The notes below the pieces were generated by a model. That model searched no databases and was not told where the DNA came from. It worked only from the letters and a program-made list of their open reading frames with translations. Positions 49,356 to 58,167 of a DNA stretch of 64,000 nucleotides are shown here, in pieces (the stretch's first letter is position 1; each line of letters opens with the position of its first letter). A program made the position numbers and the translations under genes. The stretch covers positions 2,232,001 through 2,296,000 of the forward strand of contig NZ_SRMB01000001.1 of the NCBI RefSeq assembly GCF_004745645.1, written 5' to 3'. The stretch comes from Hymenobacter metallicola (GTDB lineage Bacteria > Bacteroidota > Bacteroidia > Cytophagales > Hymenobacteraceae).

Positions 49356-49835
49356 CTAAGCAGCCTTATCGAGGTCGGCCCGGTAGGACACAACCATAGA
49401 AGGGATTGACTGCTCAGCTGCGATGTGGTTGCCCAGATTAAAAGACTCCGCCGTTGCTCCTTTACCAGCCTTTAGAGCATCCGCCAACGTGCGGGCCATA
49501 TCACGCCACATATCCCGGTCGCGCTTGAGTTCCTTTATCTCGGCTGACTCGTGGACAACAGCCAGCTCACTTGAGTTAGCTTCAACTGGTGCTGGCATCG
49601 GGTCGGCTGGCTGCGTCTTGGTCTTCATCTCTCCTTTACCACCAATAAGCCAGGCAGCATTCAGCAATGGAAAGGTGAGGACTATCTTTTCTAAAGTCTC
49701 AATGGATGGCTTATTCAGGCCGGCCTCATAGCGACCATACAGACCTGGATCCATTCCTATTTTATCGGCAAAGCCCTTTTTGCTAAGGTTGGTGCTTTCT
49801 CGAAAGGCCTGTAGCCTGCTGCTAATTGCTTCCAT
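49356..49835 (-). CDS. prophage XRE-type repressor
   Basis: 159 residues from the ATG at 49,835; an ATG at 49,868 would add 11 residues. N-terminal HTH: ISSRLQAFRESTNLSKKGFADKI, then GLYGRYEAGLNKPSIETLEKI (residues about 3-50), followed by a linker (KTKTQPADPMPAPVE) and a coiled helix ELKRDRDMWRDMARTLADAL for dimerisation. No Ser/Lys autoprotease motif is seen, so it is not a LexA-like CI. Divergent from the first early gene across a gap with matched operator-like motifs, in the manner of CI/Cro. Confidence 0.85.
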   Translation of the reverse strand: MEAISSRLQAFRESTNLSKKGFADKIGMDPGLYGRYEAGLNKPSIETLEKIVLTFPLLNAAWLIGGKGEMKTKTQPADPMPAPVEANSSELAVVHESAEIKELKRDRDMWRDMARTLADALKAGKGATAESFNLGNHIAAEQSIPSMVVSYRADLDKAA

Positions 49836-49879
49836 TTCAGCTGTATCATTTATTATTAGTGAAAACATGCACTTATAAC

Positions 49880-51422: not shown

Positions 51423-51501
51423 ACAAACAAGGGCCGCGCCCGGCATGGCACAGCCCTCATTAAACCTCTCAATTACGAAAGGCATCACACGCCACAAACT
51501 T

Positions 51502-52404
51502 ATGCAAACCAAAGAACAATTAGAAACTTTCCGCAACCTGTGCAAGGCTAACAACCTGGGAAAGGTCGATGTATGGCAGCACAAACAGTCTGGAAATTGG
51601 ATTATCGGTCGGGCTGGCATTGAGAAAATCCAGGGCCTGAACAACATTCAGATCGGCATTGAGGTAGCCGCCGCCGGCGTAGACTTCGCTGTGGTGAAAG
51701 CCACCGCCGCGCGCACCATAGAGCGCAAGAAGCTCAAAGTAGAGTCGCTGGGCAGCGCCAATGCCAAGAATAGCCAAGTAAGCTACTACGCTGAAATGGC
51801 GGAGAAGCGCGCCAAATCTCGCTCCATCCTGATGCTGATGGGCTTCTATGAGCTGGGCGTGTATGGGGAAGAGGAAGCCGATGAATTCAAGCAGTCCAAG
51901 AATGTAGGTGCTCCTACGCTGGACGATGTAGAGGCCGCACCCGGTGCGCGCCCTACCCAGCCGGCTGCCACACCCGTGGCCACCGAGCCGGCTTCAACAA
52001 CTGCCGCAGCACCCGCTGCCCTGGCCGAAAGTGGTGAACCTGTCCTGGTCATTCGTGCCTCCGAGAAGGAGTTGAATGAGTTGAATCTACTCATTGCCAA
52101 CCCACTGCTCGATGCCGATGAGCGCACCCTGCTGCTGTCCAAGCCAGTAGATCAGCGGCCAGCGGAATGGGTAGCCCGCACCATTGCCGGGCTAAAGAAA
52201 ATCTATGCGGAGCGCCAGGACCCCAAGACGGCTTTGGAGGCCGCCCGCAAACAGCTGCGCACAGCTGCTGCCAAATACAGCAAGGAAATGGGCGAAGGAG
52301 AATACAACCGGCTCATGCAGCGGGCCCAGGCGCTGACGGCTAAGCCCGAAGAGCTGCGCGCCGAGGCCCGTCAGTGCCAGAATCAGTTCGCTGTAGCTGC
52401 CTAG
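51502..52404 (+). CDS. phage early protein, possibly involved in DNA recombination
   Basis: 300 residues from the ATG at 51,502. The first 140 residues are conserved-looking: ETFRNLCKANNLGKVDVWQH, GIEKIQGLNNIQIGIEV, and VSYYAEMAEKRAKSRSILML followed by GFYELGVYGEEEADEF. Phage proteins with a similar EMAEKRAxxR..L segment are often near single-strand annealing and exonuclease genes, so a link to recombination is possible but not shown. A Pro/Ala linker leads to a helical C-terminus (KELNELNLLIANPLLDADER). A terminator follows. Confidence 0.6.
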   Translation: MQTKEQLETFRNLCKANNLGKVDVWQHKQSGNWIIGRAGIEKIQGLNNIQIGIEVAAAGVDFAVVKATAARTIERKKLKVESLGSANAKNSQVSYYAEMAEKRAKSRSILMLMGFYELGVYGEEEADEFKQSKNVGAPTLDDVEAAPGARPTQPAATPVATEPASTTAAAPAALAESGEPVLVIRASEKELNELNLLIANPLLDADERTLLLSKPVDQRPAEWVARTIAGLKKIYAERQDPKTALEAARKQLRTAAAKYSKEMGEGEYNRLMQRAQALTAKPEELRAEARQCQNQFAVAA

Positions 52405-53738: not shown

Positions 53739-54314
53739 ATGAACCATACGCATTCCTTACACCTGCTTTATTCTGAGTTTATAAAGCAGCATAGCTCATT
53801 TAGTGACTTTCAGTCGGATGTCAACATTGAGCACCTTTCTAATGGGCAGCCTATCGTCTGCAACCATTCCTTGTACCTGTTTGATGAAAAGAGCCTTATA
53901 GAGCTTGAGCAATGGATGGAGCGAATGAAGCAGGCTATTGCTGCTTATCGCCCATTGCTTGAGGCCGCGCCCGGTCTGGTTGCTCAATACACCGAAGACC
54001 GCCGAGCTATGGTGACTCGGCAGCTTGACAGCCAACTCAAAGCCCGCCAAAAGAAGACCACGCGTCCGGGCTGGGTATACCTGATGTACAACCAGCGAAA
54101 TGGGTACTACAAAATAGGATATTCTGCGGTACCTGAATTTCGTGAAAAGACACTGCAGTCGGAAGAGCCGGAGGTAGTGTTGCTCTGTGCCTGGGAGGGC
54201 TCTACCGCTGACGAGAGGGACTTGCATCAACGATTCGCAGACAAGCGCTTGCGAGGTGAGTGGTTTGCGCTGACCGCCTTAGATGTTGAGTCTGTACGCT
54301 CCCTATCAGCATGA
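53739..54314 (+). CDS. GIY-YIG / T5orf172-type nuclease domain protein
   Basis: 191 residues. The first 105 residues are helical and unknown. The C-terminal part matches GIY-YIG nucleases of the T5orf172/Mug113 type: GWVYLMYNQRNGYYKIGYSA (Val113-Tyr114 and Tyr124 to Tyr128), then VPEFREKTLQSEEPE (Arg135 region) and TADERDLHQRFADKRLRGEW (Glu). Such domains cut DNA in mobile elements or in repair. The gene overlaps the replication initiator start by four bases (ATGA). Confidence 0.8.
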   Translation: MNHTHSLHLLYSEFIKQHSSFSDFQSDVNIEHLSNGQPIVCNHSLYLFDEKSLIELEQWMERMKQAIAAYRPLLEAAPGLVAQYTEDRRAMVTRQLDSQLKARQKKTTRPGWVYLMYNQRNGYYKIGYSAVPEFREKTLQSEEPEVVLLCAWEGSTADERDLHQRFADKRLRGEWFALTALDVESVRSLSA

Positions 54315-55285
54315 GTTCCGCTGCTCAGCTCTTCGTGAGCCATTCCGTTACGCCCAGTACCTCCGCGAAAATGTCCCTGATTTCAAACCGCCCTCTTGTG
54401 ATACCACCAGCGGTGCTGGCTCTTGAAGCGCCTTCCTTAAATGCGAAGGCGCTACTAGCCGATATATTGGACTTGAACAAGGTGAGCGGGCACGTATTTG
54501 CGCGGGATGAGTACTTCGCTGAACGGTATAAAATTGGTAAACGAAGCGTTGGGGATGCCTTAAAATGGCTGGAGGATAATGGCTGGATTACGCGTGAGCT
54601 GGACAACTCGGCGCGTAATAAGCGTAACCTTCTGCCTACGGAAAAAGCAACATTGCTCTTAGGTAAGTCCTTGCGGATTTCGCAACCATTAGCCGAAGAG
54701 CATGCGAAATCCGCCATTACTTCATGCGAAATCCGCATGGAGTCCATGCGAAATCCGCAAGGACTCCATGCGAAATCCGCAGACATAAACACCAGTTTAA
54801 ACAAAAGGGGAAACCAAAGTAAAAACGAAGAAGAAGGCACGTCCTCGCCTTCGTCGGCCCAGGCTTTCGATAAAAAGGTTACCTCTCAACCTGCCAGCCA
54901 AAACCCGGTACCGGGAACAGAGGGGGGCGCGGCGCTGCCGGCGGCCGATGCGGTAGCCGACGCTACCGATGCCGACGGCGCGCTGGTGCTGACCAACCCG
55001 AAAATCTTCCGGGCCGCATGCCTCGAACTCAACCCCGCCTACGCTACCATCGACTTCGAACACTACCGCCTGGAAATCCTCTTCGAAGCCCGTGGGCAGA
55101 AGTTGCGCAAAACGGCCTACGAGTGGCGCAAATACCTCCGGCACTGGCTCAACAACTCCAAGAAGAGCCGTGACGGGCTAATCCTGGCCGCTGTGCCCGG
55201 CCAAACCAAAGGCGACCCGCGCGCCATCCAACCGCTGGCTGCTCGGTCCAGCGCTTCCCCCACCATGAAAAAATCCTGGAGCTAA
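54311..55285 (+). CDS. phage replication initiator (winged-helix) protein
   Basis: 324 residues. A winged-helix N-terminal domain (about 25-115) has SLNAKALLADILDLNKVSGH, FARDEYFAERYKIGKRSVG and DALKWLEDNGWITREL, a pattern like phage O/DnaD-type initiators. A variable, low-complexity middle (about 130-235) contains the iteron array. The C-terminal part (FRAACLELNPAYATIDFEHY, RKTAYEWRKYLRHWLNN) probably contacts the helicase. The next gene is DnaB, again as in lambdoid O-P or DnaC modules. The protein role is inferred from this layout. Confidence 0.75.
   Translation: MSSAAQLFVSHSVTPSTSAKMSLISNRPLVIPPAVLALEAPSLNAKALLADILDLNKVSGHVFARDEYFAERYKIGKRSVGDALKWLEDNGWITRELDNSARNKRNLLPTEKATLLLGKSLRISQPLAEEHAKSAITSCEIRMESMRNPQGLHAKSADINTSLNKRGNQSKNEEEGTSSPSSAQAFDKKVTSQPASQNPVPGTEGGAALPAADAVADATDADGALVLTNPKIFRAACLELNPAYATIDFEHYRLEILFEARGQKLRKTAYEWRKYLRHWLNNSKKSRDGLILAAVPGQTKGDPRAIQPLAARSSASPTMKKSWS
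54673..54837. other. probable phage replication origin: four iterons plus A-rich tract inside the initiator gene
   Basis: CATGCGAAATCCGC occurs four times at 54,701, 54,723, 54,745 and 54,767, exactly 22 bp apart, and an inverted copy of 12 bases (GCGGATTTCGCA) is at 54,673-54,684. Immediately after the last copy, 54,781-54,837 is A-rich on one strand and would melt easily. Because 22 is not a multiple of three, the repeats are read in all three frames, so selection is on DNA and not protein. The arrangement is the same as the lambda origin in gene O. Confidence 0.85.
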
Positions 55286-56754
55286 TGCACGCTGCTGCCC
55301 ATCTATCTCCGAATTCCATTAAAATCGAAATGTCCGTGCTGGGCATCATCCTGGCTGAGGCTCGCACCCTGCACACGGTGCTATCGATTCTGAGCACTGC
55401 CGACGTGTTTTACGTCGAAAAGCACCAACTCATTTACACCGCCATTCTGCACCTGCACCAGCAGAAGGAAGCCGTTGACCTGCTGACGGTGGTGCAGCAC
55501 CTGCGTGGCAAAGGCACCCTGAAAAAGGCCGGCGACACGCACTACATCGCGTCGCTGAGCCAGAACCTGGGCAACGTAGCCAACCTGGAATCCTACTGCC
55601 GTATCCTGCAGCAGCAGTACGCCCGCCGTGTGGTTATCAAGGCCGGGCATCTGCTCGAGCAGCACGGATACGACGAAGGCCAGGACCCGCTGGAGGTCGT
55701 AGCCCAGGCGCAAATGCAGCTCACTCGCTTGCAACAGGGCCTTGATACCCGAGGTGCTGTGTCGGCCGCTGCGCTGCTGCCCTCCGTACTCGACAGCATT
55801 CGCAAGGCCGTCGGCCAAAAGGGCATGACGGGCGTGCCCACGGGCCTGACCGAGCTGAACGACGCTACCGGCGGCTGGCAGCCCACGGACTTCGTGGTGA
55901 TTGGCGCCCGGCCCGGGATGGGCAAAACGGCGGCCCTGCTCTACCACGCCCGGGAAGCGGCCATTGTCAACAACATTCCCACGGCCATCTTCTCGATGGA
56001 GATGCCGGCGGCCCAGCTGGTGCTGCGCCTGCTGGCCACCGAGGTTGACGGTTATTCTAACAACGACCTGCGCCGAGGCAAGTTTGCTGGTGGTGTCGAA
56101 GAGGTGGATCACATTGCCAGCAAAGCCCAGCGCCTGGGTGGCGCTCACAACCTGTTCATCGACGATACACCGGCGCTGAACATTCACCAACTCAGCGCCA
56201 AGGCTGCGCGCCTGGTGGCCGAGCACGGGGTGGGCCTGATCCTGATTGACTACCTGCAGTTGATGTCCGGTACCAACAAGGGCCGGGGCGGCAACCGGGA
56301 AACCGATATTGCCGAAATCAGCCGCGGCTGTAAGGCCTTAGCCAAAGAGCTGAACGTGCCGGTCATTGCGTTGTCCCAACTTAGTCGCTCGGTCGAGCAG
56401 CGCGGCGGGGAGAAGCGGCCCCAGCTCAGCGACCTGCGCGAGTCGGGCACTATCGAGCAGGATGCGGACATGGTGATTTTCCTCTGGCGTGGTGAGTACT
56501 ACAACATCGAGGAGTACGCTGACGGCACACCCACCAAGGATACCATCCTCTACGACATTGCCAAGCACCGGGGTGGGGCCCTGGGGGAGATGGTGTTCGG
56601 CTGCCGCATTCAGCGGGGGCTCTTCTCCGACCTGAACGGCAGCCCGGCTCCGGCCGGGGAGCGGCCCTTCTACGACAAGGAGTCCAAGCAGACGGTGCAG
56701 CTAGGCAAGCTGCCAGCCAGCCGCTTCGAGGAGGAAGTTGATCTGCCTTTCTGA
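55285..56754 (+). CDS. replicative DNA helicase DnaB (prophage copy)
   Basis: 489 residues. The N-terminal DnaB domain (about 8-110) has EMSVLGIILAEARTLHTVLS. The RecA-like domain has the Walker A GARPGMGKTAALLYH (residues 207-221), Walker B GVGLILIDYLQLM, and PVIALSQLSRSVEQR and RPQLSDLRESGTIEQDADMV. It unwinds DNA at the fork as a hexamer. The start shares one base with the initiator stop (TAATG). As no separate loader gene is seen, the initiator may load it. Confidence 0.95.
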   Translation: MHAAAHLSPNSIKIEMSVLGIILAEARTLHTVLSILSTADVFYVEKHQLIYTAILHLHQQKEAVDLLTVVQHLRGKGTLKKAGDTHYIASLSQNLGNVANLESYCRILQQQYARRVVIKAGHLLEQHGYDEGQDPLEVVAQAQMQLTRLQQGLDTRGAVSAAALLPSVLDSIRKAVGQKGMTGVPTGLTELNDATGGWQPTDFVVIGARPGMGKTAALLYHAREAAIVNNIPTAIFSMEMPAAQLVLRLLATEVDGYSNNDLRRGKFAGGVEEVDHIASKAQRLGGAHNLFIDDTPALNIHQLSAKAARLVAEHGVGLILIDYLQLMSGTNKGRGGNRETDIAEISRGCKALAKELNVPVIALSQLSRSVEQRGGEKRPQLSDLRESGTIEQDADMVIFLWRGEYYNIEEYADGTPTKDTILYDIAKHRGGALGEMVFGCRIQRGLFSDLNGSPAPAGERPFYDKESKQTVQLGKLPASRFEEEVDLPF

Positions 56755-57091: not shown

Positions 57092-57261
57092 AGCACCAAG
57101 TAGAAACTGAAGCCCAGCTTGTCCTGATGAAATTTGAGCTGGAAGAAAAGGCAAGAGCCGTACTCGTCGTGAACCCGCCGCGCTGGGCCTATTTCTCCTT
57201 CACAAAAATGAGAGTTGCTCCAAAGCCACCTGATCCACTAAACGTGCTTTTGAGCACATAG
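57088..57261 (+). CDS. small ORF, possibly truncated by the opposite-strand cargo gene
   Basis: 57 codons linked by ATGA to the previous gene. The first 30 residues (MKHQVETEAQLVLMKFELEE, then KARAVLVVNPPRWA) look coding, but the last 25 are read through the 3' end of the opposite-strand exported-protein gene (57,189-57,512). The original end was probably replaced when that gene entered. Confidence 0.45.
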   Translation: MKHQVETEAQLVLMKFELEEKARAVLVVNPPRWAYFSFTKMRVAPKPPDPLNVLLST

Positions 57262-57512
57262 CCCTCCTGGTAGAGGCCGGTAGTTACGTGTTGGATTGTT
57301 AGAGCCGCCTCTTGCATACTGCTCGAGTTTGTCCCGCCATTCAACTTCATTTCTTCTGTCTTATCGCCGGGGCGCGCAATGATCAGTTTGCCTGTGCCCG
57401 ATACCGTGTCAACTATTCGCACGACTACTACATCCGTCCCAGCGGTTTGTGCCATCACGGGTGAAGCTCTTAGTGCCAACAGGAACACCCCTAAGAATAC
57501 AAGTTTTTTCAT
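57189..57512 (-). CDS. small exported protein, cargo gene 1 of a related pair
   Basis: 107 residues from the ATG at 57,512. Signal peptide MKKLVFLGVFLLALRASPVM ends before AQ. The mature part is beta-rich (VVVVRIVDTVSGTGKLIIAR, LYQEGYVLKSTFSGSGGFGA) and ends TLIFVKEK. It resembles the protein at 57,754-58,089 in layout (VVR, GYVL/GYIL, FVK), so the two are probably paralogs. Antisense to the phage early genes: a lysogen-expressed cargo gene is likely. Function unknown. Confidence 0.72.
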   Translation of the reverse strand: MKKLVFLGVFLLALRASPVMAQTAGTDVVVVRIVDTVSGTGKLIIARPGDKTEEMKLNGGTNSSSMQEAALTIQHVTTGLYQEGYVLKSTFSGSGGFGATLIFVKEK

Positions 57513-57544
57513 GCTACCAATATACATCAGAAAGGAAGCAGGTA

Positions 57545-57748
57545 ATGGCTAAAGGCTTCACCCCTGAAGGCCTGGCCGGGCGCATCATCACGCCCGGCCC
57601 CAAGCCTCCTACCGACCGGCCCCGCTACATGGCCGCCGAATCCAAGACGGAGCCCGGCTTATGGCACTGCAAAATCAACAGCATGAGTCCTGAACGCTGG
57701 CGGGCGCTAGAGCTACTGCTAAAGCAACATGGCTTCCATCCCTATTAA
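57545..57748 (+). CDS. small phage protein, 67 residues
   Basis: Starts at 57,545 after AGGAAGCAGGTA. Basic, Pro/Gly-rich first half (FTPEGLAGRIITPGPKPPTD), then ESKTEPGLWHCKINSMSPER and a helix RALELLLKQHGFHPY. It lies between the two opposite-strand exported-protein genes, 5 bp from the end of the second. Function unknown. Confidence 0.6.
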   Translation: MAKGFTPEGLAGRIITPGPKPPTDRPRYMAAESKTEPGLWHCKINSMSPERWRALELLLKQHGFHPY

Positions 57749-57753
57749 GCCGC

Positions 57754-58089
57754 CTACGGCTTCGAGGGTTTGACGAAGACGAGGGTTGTGCTATTGCTGA
57801 TTTGTGATGGCACACCCACGATGCTTGCCTGAAGAATGTACCCCTGCTGATACAACTTGTTCAGGAAATCAAAATACCCCTTTGCCGCAACCTGGTTGTC
57901 CTTACGGGTATAGCCGGATCTGAACTCTAATTCCTCCTGCTTACCCGTTCCTCGTTCGATCACAAGCCGAACCAAATCTGTGTCTTCGGTCACGCGCACT
58001 ACGATCATAGGAGGCTCACTCGTTTGCGCCCACACTGGTGCACTGCCCAGCACCAGCAGGCAGCTCAGAAGAAAGAATAGCTTTTTCAT
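57754..58089 (-). CDS. small exported protein, cargo gene 2 of a related pair
   Basis: 111 residues from the ATG at 58,089. Signal peptide MKKLFFLLSCLLVLGSAPVW ends before AQ. Mature segments MIVVRVTEDTDLVRLVIERG, FLNKLYQQGYILQASIVGVP and TTLVFVKPSKP parallel the first member. The pair with exported products, on the strand opposite to the phage genes, suggests a surface or periplasmic trait given to the lysogen. No family is recognised. Confidence 0.72.
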   Translation of the reverse strand: MKKLFFLLSCLLVLGSAPVWAQTSEPPMIVVRVTEDTDLVRLVIERGTGKQEELEFRSGYTRKDNQVAAKGYFDFLNKLYQQGYILQASIVGVPSQISNSTTLVFVKPSKP

Positions 58090-58167
58090 AGCGCCCAAGA
58101 TATCTCAGAAACTCCGAGAAACTCCCCCCTTCCAGAAAGCATTATCGACCCACATTCCTCTTTCCCA

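Follow-up and report, generated by a model that had tools for sequence, protein, structure and literature searches.

A probable replication origin embedded in the lambda-O-like initiator gene of a Hymenobacter prophage

The embedding of a replication origin within the gene of its own initiator is already known from phage lambda gene O and from the plasmids pSK41 and pPR9. In lambda, the origin lies in the middle of gene O and comprises four iterons and an adjacent AT-rich region, and six iterons are described for Stx phages (available part of PMC7466680). In pSK41, the Rep boxes and the origin sit in the middle of rep, whose product has a winged-helix (WH) N-terminal domain and an origin-encoded linker that is dispensable, while in pPR9 a phage-like pfam13730 N-terminus together with the origin region has replaced that of pSK41 and the C-terminus stayed (available part of PMC5703833). 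Here we analysed the window, that is, the whole stretch of 64,000 nucleotides of Hymenobacter metallicola DNA, in which a preliminary description had recognised an iteron array inside a prophage gene and had proposed the lambda solution for a Bacteroidota phage. The iterons lie inside the gene at O residues 116-144 in lambda and at residues 121-157 in the window. Both have four direct iterons, spaced 20-24 bp in lambda and 22 bp in the window, and both have AT-rich DNA directly downstream (PMC7466680, available part). No Bacteroidota phage with an embedded iteron origin was found in a literature search covering titles and abstract beginnings, with subscription journals mostly outside its coverage.

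An iteron array inside a prophage initiator gene

The prophage part of the window contains genes for a repressor (49356-49868, minus strand, HTH_3, about 5 kb from the array), an exonuclease, a T5orf172 protein, the initiator and DnaB, with terminase genes near the right end. The features of the locus are as follows:

54311..55285, plus strand: replication initiator gene, 324 aa, with N-terminal winged helix, disordered linker and C-terminal helical domain (ORF, PHROG matches, AlphaFold model)
54386..54646, plus strand: winged-helix DNA-binding domain, residues 26-112
54539..54577, plus strand: probable recognition helix, residues 77-89, KRSVGDALKWLED (helix before the two-stranded wing in the model, which suggests the role)
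54672..54684, minus strand: inverted iteron, TGCGGATTTCGCA in plus-strand letters (sequence)
54703..54715, plus strand: iteron 1, TGCGAAATCCGCC (sequence)
54725..54737, plus strand: iteron 2, TGCGAAATCCGCA (sequence)
54747..54759, plus strand: iteron 3, TGCGAAATCCGCA (sequence)
54769..54781, plus strand: iteron 4, TGCGAAATCCGCA (sequence)
54783..54837, plus strand: AT-rich tract, probable DNA unwinding element (least stable 50 bp at the array end; AT-leaning codon choice)
54971..55165, plus strand: C-terminal helical domain, residues 221-285, probable helicase-contact domain (model and sequence comparison)
55285..56754, plus strand: phage DnaB-type replicative helicase (DnaB_C 4.4e-82, DnaB N 5.8e-26, phrog_19 7.3e-100)

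The start at 54311 was favoured over a 304-aa version (P0001) because a VSHS stretch before the second methionine recurs in the relatives P0002-P0004, P0006 and P0009. The initiator ATG overlaps the stop of the preceding ORF and the initiator stop overlaps the dnaB start by one base, so that the three genes probably form one operon. In the AlphaFold model, residues 31-120 form a confident WH with MarR-type structure matches, the linker is disordered, and residues 221-280 fall in blocks of pLDDT 64-82. The protein matched phrog_270 (replication initiation protein; E 1.9e-11, residues 33-172), phrog_428 and the O-like phrog_391 (7e-8), and it reached 22.7 bits with HTH_36 (PF13730; E 8.8e-5) against a curated cut-off of 25. 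RepA_N was absent among its three Pfam matches (E up to 0.5); in a Foldseek search with the model, 4pql and 4pt7, which we take to be RepA_N entries, ranked 24 and 50 among many MarR-type folds. Elsewhere in the prophage, 51445-52404 encodes a 319-aa early protein that lacks Pfam matches as well as PHROG matches below 0.01, at a position where phages often keep a recombinase, and 57189-58098 (minus strand, between dnaB and the terminase genes) encodes two adjacent similar proteins of 112 and 114 aa, both with signal-peptide-like starts.

The array consists of four copies of CATGCGAAATCCGC starting at 54701, 54723, 54745 and 54767 (spacings 22, 22 and 22 bp), preceded by the inverted copy at 54672-54684, whose centre is 31 bp rather than 22 bp away from that of the first direct copy, and followed directly by the A-rich stretch 54783-54837. 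All sites are odd palindromes whose two arms differ at a single position (TGCGAA-A-TCCGCA), and the first direct copy has a final C in place of A. The four direct copies at 22 bp, the inverted copy upstream and the A-rich tract downstream, as well as the position of the array within a winged-helix ORF just before dnaB, had been named in the preliminary description and were borne out. The exact word TGCGAAATCCGC occurs five times in the 5.94-Mb genome, all in this array; with up to one mismatch it occurs at 52 places, versus 14 for the backwards-read pattern. The clustered-repeat score of the 300 bp that follow the WH codons was 16, compared with a maximum of 9 in 60 dinucleotide shuffles, and it also exceeded all 21 control segments of the same locus. 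The clustering of the array is not due to chance.

Arrays and unstable DNA in related loci

A WH alignment (A2) was searched in genomes of the family (204 genomes, E limit 1e-6), order (390, 1e-8) and class (395, 1e-8), and matches were obtained in 23, 23 and 4 genomes of these overlapping sets, respectively. Forty loci were fetched, giving 41 with the window; the order-level match G280 (score equal to that of G268) was left out. When clusters of 12-mers were searched on both strands along the full length of each locus (about 7.2 kb, and 5.3 kb in L070) irrespective of gene position, the best short-repeat cluster fell inside the WH gene in 22 of the 41 loci, and a long tandem repeat elsewhere outscored it in L062, L066 and L067. 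Over the 300 bp that follow the WH codons, 25/41 loci scored above all 60 shuffles for repeats, including L064, which is not to be counted as bearing iterons since its AT-rich repeat lies in a single frame. Among the close WH relatives (E 4e-20 or better, 18 loci), 16 had an array at the same place, and in 14 of these 16 no control segment scored as high (1 of 21 did in L035 and in L044).

The 16 loci that did not exceed all shuffles (L043, L045, L051-L057, L060, L063, L065 and L068-L071) are distant or truncated except L043; a single one of the 60 shuffles reached the repeat score in L063 and in L070, L055 and L057 are short ORFs, and L069 has an array by palindrome search. In L043, the three sites that score highest in the 7.2 kb under a matrix from L039 and L042 lie downstream of the WH (+52, +74 and +119) and are degenerate but in the 22-bp register, while with a broader seven-locus matrix only +119 came out on top and +97 was eighth. 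The match in L045 covers WH positions 2-68 of 87 and its ORF stops 12 nt later, and this locus (L045:3713-4800) reads as an initiator relative cut off within the WH and followed by a transposase-like ORF (named by reading). An intact homologue without repeats, which the preliminary description had named as evidence against its proposal, was thus found only doubtfully among close relatives (L043), whereas several distant relatives (E above 1e-15) have intact ORFs and no array detectable by the shuffle test.

Spacings and reading frames were counted in the 21 loci whose palindrome score was at least 18. Their 93 centre-to-centre spacings were exactly 22 bp in 43 cases and 22-24 bp in 67, and 15 of the remaining 26 were 32-35 or 44 bp, near whole helical turns. 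In one relative (L073:3700-4000), half-sites lie 12 and 21 bp apart, giving most copies a period of 33 bp (three turns) rather than 22, with all copies but the last ones in one frame.

The least stable 50 bp of the gene began at -12 to +16 nt relative to the array end in 20/21 loci (19/21 within the range of -10 to +60 preset in the script, L044 lying at -12), the exception being L069 at -419 nt; the window gave +0, and lambda O under the same treatment +4. Mean AT content was 0.65 in the 60 bp after the array, compared with 0.47 before it and 0.46 for the whole gene. Tract AT exceeded the expectation from amino acids and locus codon usage (z above 1.64) in 15/21 loci (mean z 2.9; rest of the gene, mean z -1.0 over 20), and the window tract had a codon-choice z of 2.5 to 3.8 depending on the codon table. 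The bias was missing from the tract of L038 (z -1.1) and extended beyond the tract to the remainder of the gene in L034 and L035. AT-leaning codon choice in the window also covered the WH and iteron codons but left out the C-terminal ones, a contrast that fits a mosaic gene.

The gene following the initiator encodes DnaB in the window, L040 and L043 (by Pfam), in L037, L039, L042 and L044 (by DnaB motif) and in L011 (by comparison), and a DnaC-like AAA loader in L038, L051, L062, L066 and L073. In three further loci (L034:4342-5094, L046:2123-2899 and L059:1910-2809), its place is taken by a P-loop-less protein of roughly 250-300 aa that matches phrog_35728 (unknown function) and is a candidate non-ATPase helicase loader. 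Kinship of these P-loop-less proteins (alignment A5: L034, L036, L046, L059, L067) with lambda P was looked for and gave no significant match (hhalign probability 0.6%, E 0.1), and the alignment had no solved structural relative up to E 1.

These data bear on an alternative in which the array is mainly a control site, through which the initiator represses its own gene or sets copy number or incompatibility, with the origin lying elsewhere. Inverted and direct palindrome copies inside a gene could serve as an operator, and mini-replicons of pPR9 and pSK41, which differ in the N-terminal/origin block, are compatible (PMC5703833, available part), but the least stable AT-rich tract adjoins the array in 20/21 loci, codon choice in that tract is bent towards AT in 15/21, the array lies about 360 bp into the gene and not at its start, and helicase or loader genes come next in several relatives. 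We therefore regard this alternative as improbable, although origin and control roles of the array could coexist.

Coupling of the iteron word to the winged helix

Half-sites aligned on the palindrome centre differed widely among loci, the words including the following:

CCATGCGRA: window, L037
GCCTGCGGA: L034-L036
TATTGCAAA: L039
TACCGCAGA: L040, L041
AAGCCGGAA: L046, L047
TACCCGCAA: L048
TACCCCAAA: L049
TCTTTAAAA: L072
CCTGAACTA: L073

After dereplication of the 21 array loci to 18 with pairwise WH identity below 90%, iteron similarity correlated with WH identity (Mantel test, 5000 permutations, r = 0.53, P = 0.0002), whereas identity over the last 110 residues showed no correlation with it (r = 0.02, P = 0.39), the P values being descriptive as the loci are related. 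Shared descent inflates the WH correlation, WH and iterons lying in one gene, and the C-terminal control reduces this effect without removing it. The result agrees with the expectation, raised in the preliminary description, that the iteron word should change together with the WH domain in related prophages. Iteron-linked columns were not enriched in the recognition helix (P = 0.65; 12 versus 46 columns); WH columns 53, 56 and 79 were among the highest-ranked, which with 18 loci is a lead only. The half-sites CCGGAA, CCGCAA and CCCAAA, for instance, go with the recognition helices KDTVSVAIK, TDTVNRAVK and VNTAQTCVK (L046, L048 and L049, respectively).

In relatives, WH and array are seen to move together as one exchanged block, and the C-terminal domain remains linked to its helicase gene. 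Two relatives show this in reciprocal form. H. fodinae (L010/L037) shares WH, linker and iteron with the window, with 59% identity in the WH and 48% over residues 21-210, the alignment not reaching the C-terminal domain; identity between the two DnaB proteins is 43%. L011, in turn, is 59% identical over residues 189-324 in the C-terminal region and 67% in DnaB, and its WH does not align with that of the window; its array has the word TAAAGTGTCA at spacings of 12-30 bp (score 15 versus a shuffle maximum of 7). At the protein level, P0002-P0006 repeat the L010/L037 pattern and P0008 the L011 pattern, as does P0007 by reading. Four genes with other WH types were inspected, and an array was present in L011, L027 and L032 and not found in L026. 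Unlike the 22-bp arrays, those of L011 and L032 are built from TAA(A/G)GTGTCA words that lie 12, 15 or 18 bp apart, with a single 30-bp interval in L011.

The coupling also weighs against the idea that the repeats serve regulation or partition by binding a host factor, the prophage repressor or some other protein. Palindromes of 13 bp would suit a repressor as well, and an HTH_3 repressor is encoded about 5 kb away, but no exact copy lies near the repressor gene or elsewhere in the genome and the iteron word tracks the WH of its own gene and not the C-terminus, which leaves this explanation very unlikely. A broader reading of the same data is that a single scaffold underlies, in Cytophagales prophages, a natural library of at least a dozen distinct WH/iteron pairs, each with an orthogonal origin specificity and with half-sites that differ stepwise. 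WH, array and AT tract would be exchanged as a unit independent of the C-terminal-helicase unit, and origin swaps would allow escape from replicon incompatibility; we consider the chances of this proposal evenly balanced.

The preliminary description had further held that DNA and not protein is kept, given that the window copies are read in three frames. This was confirmed for the window, whose four direct copies read HAKSA, CEIR, MRNP and HAKSA, and extended to the 21 arrays, in which copies span three frames in 13 (window included) and two in 8, so that no repeated peptide is kept; the frame argument does not apply to L011 and L032, as all their copies share one frame. The view that the repeats are kept as protein, namely a repetitive linker peptide, draws on the recurrence of HAKSA, CEIR and RNPQ among close relatives and on the single frame of L011, L032 and most of L073, but it is barely credible in view of the absence of any single repeating peptide in the window and the 12 other three-frame and 8 two-frame arrays and of a linker modelled as disordered, and for the window the frames contradict it.

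We also scanned bare DNA for three GCRRAWTYYGC copies at 22 bp. Among 2.9 million viral contigs there were 12 hits, namely this prophage, H. fodinae, seven mutual near-copies and the distinct L078, L084 and L085, and in all 12 the array lay 97-138 codons after the preceding stop of an ORF reading as HTH/WH. HTH_36 was listed for all five that were run (L075, L076, L078, L084, L085; 3e-13 to a weak 0.005, L084 and L085 being below cut-off), and replication-initiation PHROGs were matched by all four run (L075, L078, L084, L085). Scanning of genome contigs with the same pattern gave 7 hits, of which three were in WH genes (L087, L088, L092), two of them copies of loci already in the set. In L088 (3495-4392, a Bacteroidales genome), copies of GCGCAAAATTTGCGC with 22-bp spacing extend across two overlapping frames, with the WH ORF stopping after the array and a second ORF starting within it, a layout that may represent a split initiator, a frameshift or an assembly error. 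The remaining hits (L089, L090, L091 and L093; sources including Ignavibacteria, Mycetocola and Acidobacteriaceae) have the 22-bp-spaced triple outside an obvious WH gene, so that the DNA pattern alone is not fully specific. Searches at the protein level returned 10 proteins with the protein itself, 1 with a short WH profile, for which length restricts the candidates, and 66 with a full-length profile, while single-protein scans of viral contigs found the prophage itself and a 100% identical copy of L017, otherwise none. Against named phage genomes, tblastn gave only 7 weak matches; they span 21-24% of the protein and all come from Lactobacillus, Lacticaseibacillus and Leuconostoc phages.

Proposed mechanism and relation to known systems

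Judged from sequence comparison, this locus is very probably the replication origin of a Hymenobacter prophage, embedded in its own lambda-O-like initiator gene; the WH-coupled iteron words and the adjoining AT tract support the lambda-like solution suggested earlier for a Bacteroidota phage. The N-terminal winged helix would bind the five palindromic iterons, probably as one dimer per 13-bp site, and with a spacing of 22 bp these dimers would all sit on the same side of the helix. The resulting nucleoprotein complex may then open the AT-rich tract that adjoins the array on its 3' side, and the C-terminal domain, held on a disordered linker that is partly iteron-encoded, may bring the phage DnaB encoded by the next gene to the melted strand. 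Were the pairs to bind as predicted, natural cognate pairs would reveal the DNA code of one WH scaffold, and the set would suggest a simple origin finder for uncultured phages that looks for clustered palindromes behind a WH domain and, after them, the least stable part of the gene. The relatives also provide several phage examples of a block exchange described for plasmid pPR9 and a few others (PMC5703833, available part).

The earlier statement that the initiator has no obvious similarity to O stood for single sequences, direct comparison with a single lambda O sequence having found nothing, but not at the profile level, where lambda O (in its N-terminal half) and the window protein both matched phrog_678 and phrog_345 over the N-terminal domain and linker (2.4e-5 and 3e-4, respectively, for the window protein, over WH and linker). 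Both also matched phrog_391, in different parts, and the best family of lambda O, phrog_277, was not among the listed matches of the window protein. The iteron word differs from that of lambda and the window has one extra inverted copy. The lambda partner is a P-type loader of host DnaB, whereas the next gene in the window encodes a phage DnaB, and because of this helicase gene we describe the initiator as working like O and do not file it as O proper. The use of lambda as precedent held in that the gene anatomy is alike, but lambda is not the sole one, since the staphylococcal plasmids pSK41 and pPR9 are equally close (PMC5703833, available part). The block exchange of pPR9 is of the same kind as that between the window and L011, while pSK41 is a RepA_N plasmid and the Rep of pPR9 a chimaera, the window protein has no RepA_N match (E up to 0.5), and the C-terminal domain of pSK41 Rep contacts the DnaG primase whereas that of the window protein travels with DnaB. 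A further close system is the phrog_270/HTH_36 group of phage initiators, to which the window protein has a direct match (phrog_270) and in which L075, L078, L084 and L085, fetched by DNA pattern alone, match phrog_270 and have embedded 22-bp arrays; the family description is silent on embedded origins, and iteron words differ among members. Compared with the known systems, the window stands apart by its iteron word, host lineage and DnaB partner, and its relatives provide a large set of apparently matched pairs of winged helix and iteron.
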